64,000 nucleotides of DNA, taken from Chrysogorgia sp. JL179-B06 (Eukaryota; Cnidaria; Anthozoa; Scleralcyonacea; Chrysogorgiidae). This document shows positions 15,488-38,991 of this stretch, one piece after another (the first letter of the stretch is position 1; each line of letters opens with the position of its first letter). The notes beneath the pieces were generated by a model that saw nothing but the letters and a program-made list of their open reading frames with translations, was not told the DNA's origin and did no database searches. The stretch lies in NCBI GenBank assembly GCA_035772405.1, contig JAYKKM010000375.1, forward strand, positions 4,513,501 through 4,577,500. Direction: 5' to 3'. A program made the position numbers and the translations under genes.

Positions 15488-15584
15488 ATGAATATTATCA
15501 GCAAAATTGGAGACCTTTCGTCATTGCTATCTATTGTACTATTTGGTTTATGCTGCAGTGTCCTATGCTCAAGGGCTGATAAAG
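15488..15584 (+). CDS. Gene A exon 1, signal peptide
   Basis: ATG 15488 starts a hydrophobic leader ([19 protein letters not shown]), donor GTAAAG at 15585, phase 1. A CTCCTTTCCAG acceptor ends one base before the ATG, so a separate 5' UTR exon is likely upstream. Exon 1 of gene B is nearly the same, including this acceptor. Confidence 0.85.

Positions 15585-38991: not shown

Follow-up and report, generated by a model that had tools for sequence, protein, structure and literature searches.

Two tandem genes, one of them interrupted by a stop codon, in the stretch of Chrysogorgia sp. JL179-B06 DNA analysed here (64,000 nucleotides, hereafter the window, whose positions are used throughout) share a gene anatomy, an Eph-type ectodomain and a common tail exon, and have diverged quickly while keeping their reading frames. 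We read them, with a probability of about one half, as a tandem pair of Eph-derived, kinase-less, single-pass (type I) receptors with a ligand-triggered SH2-docking tail. As far as sequence can tell, the gene is Eph-derived, and its Eph-type ectodomain stands on a non-kinase, tyrosine-bearing tail.

Gene Structure of the Tandem Pair

Copy 1 is composed of six exons with GT/AG splice sites throughout, which join in phase into 1629 nt encoding 542 aa with a terminal stop only. An earlier note on this DNA had put forward a six-exon, in-phase product of 542 residues, and the reconstruction agrees with it to the exact length. The exons of copy 1 are as follows:

Exon 1, 15488..15584, + strand: 97 nt; start codon and signal peptide ([32 protein letters not shown]); ends in phase 1; donor AAAG/GTAAAG
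Exon 2, 19651..19718, + strand: 68 nt; diverged N-terminal strand region of the ligand-binding domain; acceptor ctgttttag, donor gtaatt
Exon 3, 28629..29217, + strand: 589 nt; Eph ligand-binding domain and first half of the cysteine-rich region; PF01404; PDB matches EphB2, EphA4 and EphA2
Exon 4, 31762..31920, + strand: 159 nt, phase 1-1; EGF-like/Ephrin_rec_like module; PF07699
Exon 5, 33169..33495, + strand: 327 nt, phase 1-1; sole FN3 domain; PF00041
Exon 6, 38603..38991, + strand: 389 nt; transmembrane helix, tyrosine tail ([18 protein letters not shown]) and stop codon

With its short second exon, long third exon and a single exon each for the EGF-like module and FN3, this plan presumably corresponds to exons 1-5 of vertebrate Eph genes; a literature search for the vertebrate exon plan returned nothing. 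Resemblance to Eph exon 2 was rejected as a means of identifying exon 2, as none of the 562 candidates (about 41-110 nt) was convincing and the chosen exon lies outside the top 40 by this measure. It ranks first among 68-nt candidates once splice sites are weighed in, and it was assigned because its frame and both splice sites are conserved, with a 3-nt indel, in the tandem copy at 52005-52075. By Kyte-Doolittle hydropathy, the signal-peptide core (residues 10-28) and the transmembrane stretch (residues 424-445, followed by YKKRH) both score high.

The tandem copy, which the earlier note had missed, was found at 51757-60856 by comparing the window with itself using tblastn and blastn. Its exons are:

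Exon 1', 51757..51850, + strand: signal peptide; tblastn E 1e-12, 81% identity; splice site
Exon 2', 52005..52075, + strand: 71 nt; aligned with exon 2, phase and splice sites matching
Exon 3', 53152..53749, + strand: ligand-binding domain and cysteine-rich region; tblastn E 3e-58, 56% identity; one in-frame stop
Exon 4a, 55383..55538, + strand: EGF-like module 1 of 3; tblastn E 1e-23; phase 1-1
Exon 4b, 58406..58561, + strand: EGF-like module 2 of 3; tblastn E 1e-22; phase 1-1
Exon 4c, 59622..59777, + strand: EGF-like module 3 of 3; tblastn E 2e-28; PF07699 5.1e-5, 23.4 bits, above cut-off; phase 1-1
Exon 6', 60498..60856, + strand: transmembrane helix and tail (YELP, YMPL, YQSL, AYLTV); tblastn E 2e-50; TAG after 60856

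These seven exons, all with GT/AG sites and with phases matching those of copy 1, form a 530-codon frame whose sole stop lies at codon 138, in exon 3'. Around exon 1, positions 15426-15604 and 51683-51870 are 84.8% identical by blastn, and around exon 6 the figure is 77.4% (38249-39116 and 60146-60980). Exon order and phases recur in copy 2, which places the observation beyond chance, and exon 6 is taken as a genuine part of the gene because the tandem copy has its counterpart at the corresponding position and with identical phase. Copy 2 contains the EGF-like exon three times (the DNA of 4a and 4b is 88.6% identical over 289 bp that include intron), and tblastn found no FN3 exon in this copy. 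By Pfam, the pieces of exon 3' flanking the stop give no Ephrin_lbd match, and the second piece gives an Ephrin_CRD match of 0.0049, below cut-off; the ligand-binding domain of this exon is recognized only via copy 1. A Cadherin_C_2 match to exon 6' (4.5e-4, below cut-off) was dismissed as transmembrane noise.

The stop in exon 3' may represent a recent or segregating null allele, or an assembly error. Large tandem repeat arrays with 21/42-bp and 100-bp units occupy 53932-54886 and 55853-57098, in introns of copy 2 within the region that holds the three EGF-like exons and in which an FN3 exon was not found. Intron 2 of copy 1 contains a retroelement (20378-26204), which we take to be of the BEL/Pao type, with a 1754-codon ORF (20646-25910) in which Pfam, run on two pieces, recognizes RVT_1 and rve. 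Its 232-bp terminal repeats are 99.6% identical, a near-identity that points to recent insertion inside the gene, and copy 1 is longer than copy 2 partly because of insertions such as this one. Transposon-like fragments lie at 27202-27711 (- strand) and 2693-3184 (- strand), with one ORF of the C17orf113 zinc-finger type and another of the MADF DNA-binding type. A tRNA-Ala (GGC anticodon) was called at 44651-44724 and is flanked by a 71-bp repeat, 94% identical (44554-44623 and 44760-44830); the call may be a tRNA-derived repeat.

The Eph-Type Ectodomain

When exons 3-6 of copy 1 are joined (487 residues) and searched against Pfam, Ephrin_lbd (PF01404) is matched at E 2.5e-7 and 31.4 bits, above the gathering cut-off of 27, and fn3 (PF00041) at E 7.1e-10. 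Copy 1 thus carries the domain used to assign proteins to the Eph family, the absence of which the earlier note had named as grounds for giving up its reading. Ephrin_rec_like (PF07699) falls just below its cut-off in copy 1 (E 9.2e-5, 22.6 bits, cut-off 23.1), and a sub-threshold Pur_ac_phosph_N match overlaps the FN3 of this copy. In a phmmer search of the PDB, Eph receptors account for all 11 of the 11 distinct sequences matched at E <= 0.01. The best of these is the EphB2 ectodomain at E 1.8e-33, with a main stretch over query residues 93-338 that includes the cysteine-rich region and FN3, and EphA4 aligns to query residues 10-402. The cysteine-rich region of Eph receptors is therefore present, as the PDB alignments span it and exon 4c of copy 2 exceeds the PF07699 cut-off. 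The two FN3 domains of Eph receptor kinases are not, as copy 1 has one and none was found in copy 2. Pfam, the PDB matches and hydropathy together bear out the domain order proposed earlier, namely signal peptide, Ephrin_lbd, cysteine-rich region, one FN3, transmembrane helix and tail.

Structure prediction for exon 3 alone gave a mean pLDDT of 34, too low for use. Whole-protein searches found no relatives of exons 3-6 among 4137 candidates (E <= 0.001) and none from the two-copy alignment among 8000 candidates (E <= 0.01), in collections that apparently hold few animal proteins and with a length window that left out most full-length Ephs, so that this absence says little. Exon 3 likewise found no relative among viral and prokaryote contigs.

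The ligand-binding domain itself is strongly diverged. In a MAFFT alignment with human sequences, that of copy 1 is identical to EphA2 at 22/147 positions, to EphA4 at 25/147 and to EphB2 at 30/146, as against 84/171 between EphA2 and EphB2. Equivalents of the fold cysteines C70, C105 and C188 are kept in copy 1, the partner of C105 being aligned to EphA4 by phmmer and gapped by MAFFT, and the ligand-binding fold is probably retained. PMC6485061 (section 6) lists 14 non-cysteine residues that the ligand-binding domains of Ephs have in common; of these, copy 1 keeps four (W52, Y67, W80 and T83) and copy 2 three (W52, W80 and T83). The interface loops are shortened, with 11 residues in copy 1 for segment 52-70 of EphA2, which has 19; the residues and loops conserved for ligand binding in Eph receptors are thus largely missing. 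Classical ephrin binding is doubtful in these predicted receptors, because just 4/14 of the conserved non-cysteine residues are left in copy 1.

Both copies possess two extra cysteines, C40 and C63 in copy 1 numbering (exons 19651-19718 and 28629-29217), which have no counterpart in EphA2, EphA4 or EphB2 and possibly form a new disulphide near the ligand face.

Search for Kinase, SAM and Second FN3 Domains

The kinase domain and the SAM/PDZ elements by which an Eph receptor tyrosine kinase is recognized were not found within the window. Six kinase-motif patterns, run over the six-frame ORFs longer than 40 aa of the 64-kb window, matched nothing. In tblastn searches of the same 64 kb, E 0.21 was the best value reached by the human Eph queries for kinase with SAM and for the second FN3; the best match of the second-FN3 query is exon 5 itself, and the EphA2 kinase-plus-SAM query gave no SAM match in the window. 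The same tblastn with human Eph pieces recovered exons 3, 4, 5, 3' and 4a-c at E 1e-7 to 0.008, and did not recover exons 1, 2 and 6. Because an Eph receptor is as a rule more conserved in its catalytic half than in the other, the absence of this domain is informative within the window. The 12.7 kb downstream of exon 6, up to copy 2, likewise yielded neither a kinase nor a second FN3 nor a SAM. The claim that the receptor lacks a kinase, for which a look for linked kinase exons had been suggested, accordingly holds over the 64-kb window. The C-terminus reads TVIT or TVIP, and by eye it has no PDZ-type end, the last residue of copy 1 not being hydrophobic.

The Cytoplasmic Tail

The tail measures 97 residues in copy 1 and 89 in copy 2, and four motif tyrosines are present in both, in the contexts (copy 1/copy 2) YENP/YELP, YMIL/YMPL, YQSL/YQSL and IDYLTV/TAYLTV. 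The motifs reported in the earlier note, [12 protein letters not shown] and IDYLTV, are both there. Its description of the tail as ITIM/ITAM-like is weakened: a YxxL-x9-YxxL pair occurs in both copies (shuffle P 0.026 per copy for spacings of 6-12) and does not fit the strict ITAM spacing of 6-8, while the ITIM pattern [ILVS]xYxx[LIV] is matched once per copy at a frequency expected by chance (shuffle P 0.27) and on different tyrosines (IDYLTV in copy 1, LPYMPL in copy 2), so that its position is not conserved. Three YxxPhi motifs are likewise unremarkable (shuffle P 0.12), and the ITSM consensus is fitted by TAYLTV in copy 2 (P 0.046) but not by IDYLTV in copy 1. Seven tail patterns were tried, and these P values are uncorrected and come from two copies that are not independent. 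The tyrosines may have been retained simply because the tails are just ~11% diverged. A plausible reading is an SH2-docking tail, ITAM-like in spacing, and not a proven ITIM or ITAM.

An origin of the tail from the Eph juxtamembrane region, suggested by the likeness of YENP to YEDP, was rejected, since local alignment of both tails with three human juxtamembrane regions gave shuffle P values of 0.16-0.97. The earlier view of an immune-receptor tail grafted onto the ectodomain finds no sequence support, as whole-protein searches of the PDB and of two collections apparently poor in animal proteins gave no relative of the tail.

Divergence Between the Copies

Over 408 codons, dN between the copies is 0.229 and dS 0.227, giving a dN/dS of 1.01 (bootstrap 0.72-1.46); these codons comprise exons 1, 2, 3, 4 against 4c, and 6, excluding the final codons of exon 3 and the codon pair affected by the stop. 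Two tandem copies with this ratio between them might belong to a clustered, rapidly diverging multigene family. For the tail, dN/dS is also 1.01 (82 codons; bootstrap 0.43-3.51), and purifying selection on it is not visible; exon 2 reaches 3.3 (1.05-20), on 23 codons only. Divergence is uneven along the gene, with 132/434 sites differing in exon 2 plus the initial 122 codons of exon 3, compared with 63/448 in exons 1 and 6 (P 6e-9), that is, 30% for the ligand-binding part versus 14% for exons 1 and 6. Exon 2 differs from its flanks at 21/68 versus 18/111 sites (P 0.026), a weak contrast that depends on a choice of flanks like that made for exon 6.

For exon 6, an excess over its flanks (56/354 versus 10/251, P 2e-6) was obtained with two well-aligned intron stretches and the 3'UTR, a comparison that dropped a third, more diverged intron stretch (20/118). 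It was rejected because the full aligned intron 5 flank (47/304) and the 3'UTR (5/118) together give 52/422, at which the contrast is largely gone.

Coding indels are multiples of three in 10/10 cases, compared with 5/16 in five flanking stretches (Fisher 7e-4), in a count that excluded exons 4a, 4b and the opening bases of exon 6. Both copies thus preserved their frames for most of the time since they separated, even as their amino acids were free to change. Diversifying selection would account for this, as would gene conversion of the ends or a relaxation of constraint in which copy 2 was broken recently. More generally, it fits rapid or relaxed evolution of the pair, and a decaying copy 2 would likewise yield a dN/dS near 1.

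A Proposed Function and Its Rivals

In the receptor reading that we favour, the ectodomain (the diverged ligand-binding domain, the cysteine-rich modules and, in copy 1, FN3) would bind a surface ligand on a touching cell. This ligand could be an ephrin or, more likely, something else, as the contact residues have been lost. Clustering of the receptor would then allow a separate tyrosine kinase, of the Src family or a co-clustered full-length Eph, to phosphorylate the tail, where the YxxL-x9-YxxL pair and a third YxxV motif could recruit SH2 proteins and lead to adhesion, repulsion or immune-type responses. Having no kinase half, a receptor of this type would depend on borrowed kinases for any signalling. 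From the observed anatomy we thus infer the expression of the receptors, their ligand, their phosphorylation, the SH2 partners and the biological role. Weighing against this reading are the dN/dS near 1, in the tail as well, the stop codon of copy 2, the chance-level ITIM match and the loss of conserved ligand-binding residues. A fast-evolving tandem family of recognition receptors, in which a kinase-free Eph ectodomain serves as a variable recognition module on an SH2-read tyrosine tail, is a further and rather doubtful possibility; it would correspond to Alr, fester or KIR-type systems but use a non-Ig ectodomain, with symmetrical phase-1 exons proposed to let modules be lost or tripled with the frame intact.

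The tail tyrosines would be incidental if the pair encoded decoy or dominant-negative Ephs resembling EphA7-T1, which would bind ephrins or pair with full-length Ephs, lower kinase signalling and favour adhesion. EphA7-T1 is kinase-less, interacts with EphA7-FL in vitro and can lower EphA7-FL phosphorylation (PMC7717530, in excerpt), and in such a tail three YxxPhi motifs are not unusual (P 0.12) and purifying selection is not visible. A decoy is nevertheless somewhat unlikely, as each copy, judged from the window, forms a gene by itself with a transmembrane and tail exon of its own, most of the residues conserved at the ephrin interface are lost and the loops shorter, and a tail of 97 residues contrasts with the 11 unique residues of EphA7-T1 (PMC7717530, in excerpt).

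An inter-copy dN/dS of ~1 could also mark decaying Eph-derived paralogues, a family that lost its kinase and in which copy 2 is already a pseudogene and copy 1 drifts without an important role; the exon 3' stop codon, an identity to human Ephs of merely 22/147 to 30/146 in the ligand-binding domain and the transposon sequence in the introns are in keeping with this. Decay is quite unlikely given the open 542-aa frame and GT/AG sites of copy 1, the opening of copy 2 over 530 codons and seven exons bar one stop, the retained fold cysteines and the ten of ten in-frame indels (5/16 in flanks), by which both copies were frame-kept for most of their divergence. Very improbable is an ordinary Eph gene whose exons 1-5 splice to second-FN3, kinase and SAM exons beyond the window, with exon 6 as an alternative end. 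Vertebrate Ephs do produce kinase-less splice forms (PMC6993872 and PMC7717530, both in excerpt), and the window, to which the kinase search was confined, stops at 64000, but nothing kinase-like was found over the 12.7 kb past exon 6, after which copy 2 begins with its own signal peptide and bears the same tail exon, and the kinase exons would need to sit past this second complete gene.

Comparison With Known Systems

Eph receptor tyrosine kinases resemble copy 1 in the order of signal peptide, Ephrin_lbd, cysteine-rich region, EGF-like module, FN3 and transmembrane helix and in the cysteines of the ligand-binding domain, but have a kinase, a SAM domain and a second FN3, none of which was found here in the window, and 10 of the 14 listed residues are replaced in copy 1. 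EphA7-T1 and other kinase-less Eph splice forms likewise combine an Eph ectodomain with a transmembrane helix and no kinase (PMC7717530 and PMC6993872, in excerpt). They are splice forms of kinase genes, whereas here two genes each have a dedicated exon for a tyrosine tail of 97 or 89 residues. The pseudokinases EphB6 and EphA10 lack catalytic residues but keep the kinase fold (PMC6993872, in excerpt), while no kinase fold was found here. In the choanoflagellate Salpingoeca urceolata, a kinase-less Eph-like sequence with an Eph ligand-binding domain and FN3 has been described (PMC6485061, in excerpt); it and some incomplete Eph models of non-bilaterians are called a fragment or partial gene models there, whereas the exon structure here is that of a gene with its own end. 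Kinase-less Ephs are thus already known as splice forms, a choanoflagellate fragment and partial models, and what on present sequence evidence sets this pair apart is a separate gene with its own tail exon.

Hydractinia Alr and the Botryllus fester co-receptor (FcoR) are, like this pair, clustered invertebrate membrane receptors. Alr is a multi-gene family of 41 members (PMC11999971, in excerpt), and FcoR tails carry an ITIM, a hemITAM or core YxxI/L/V motifs, with ITAM/ITIM in Hydractinia candidates (PMC12065747, in excerpt). These systems differ in that their ectodomains are of the Ig or Ig/sushi type and that allorecognition is their known or candidate role, whereas the ectodomain here is Eph-derived and two copies are seen in the window. 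In a literature search covering few subscription papers, Eph receptors with an ITIM in sponges, kinase-less Ephrin_lbd proteins in cnidaria and immune Ephs in Hydractinia were not found, and within the same scope Eph receptor and allorecognition were mentioned together just in a review of tunicate muscle development, while Ephrin_lbd expansion led to three papers, two of which are Eph evolution papers already cited; with this scope, absence is weak evidence of novelty.

Implications

Ephrin_lbd is seemingly Eph-specific in vertebrates (PMC6993872, in excerpt), and gene models from simple animals in which Eph domains are missing have been described as partial (PMC6485061, section 6). In Chrysogorgia, the exon structure and the tandem copy show a gene in which an Eph-type ectodomain has a dedicated non-kinase tyrosine tail. 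An immune or allorecognition role for it is rather unlikely. If the pair is expressed, Eph recognition would be separable from the kinase at the level of the gene, and the pair would offer a simple test case for immune-type tyrosine logic joined to a developmental guidance ectodomain.
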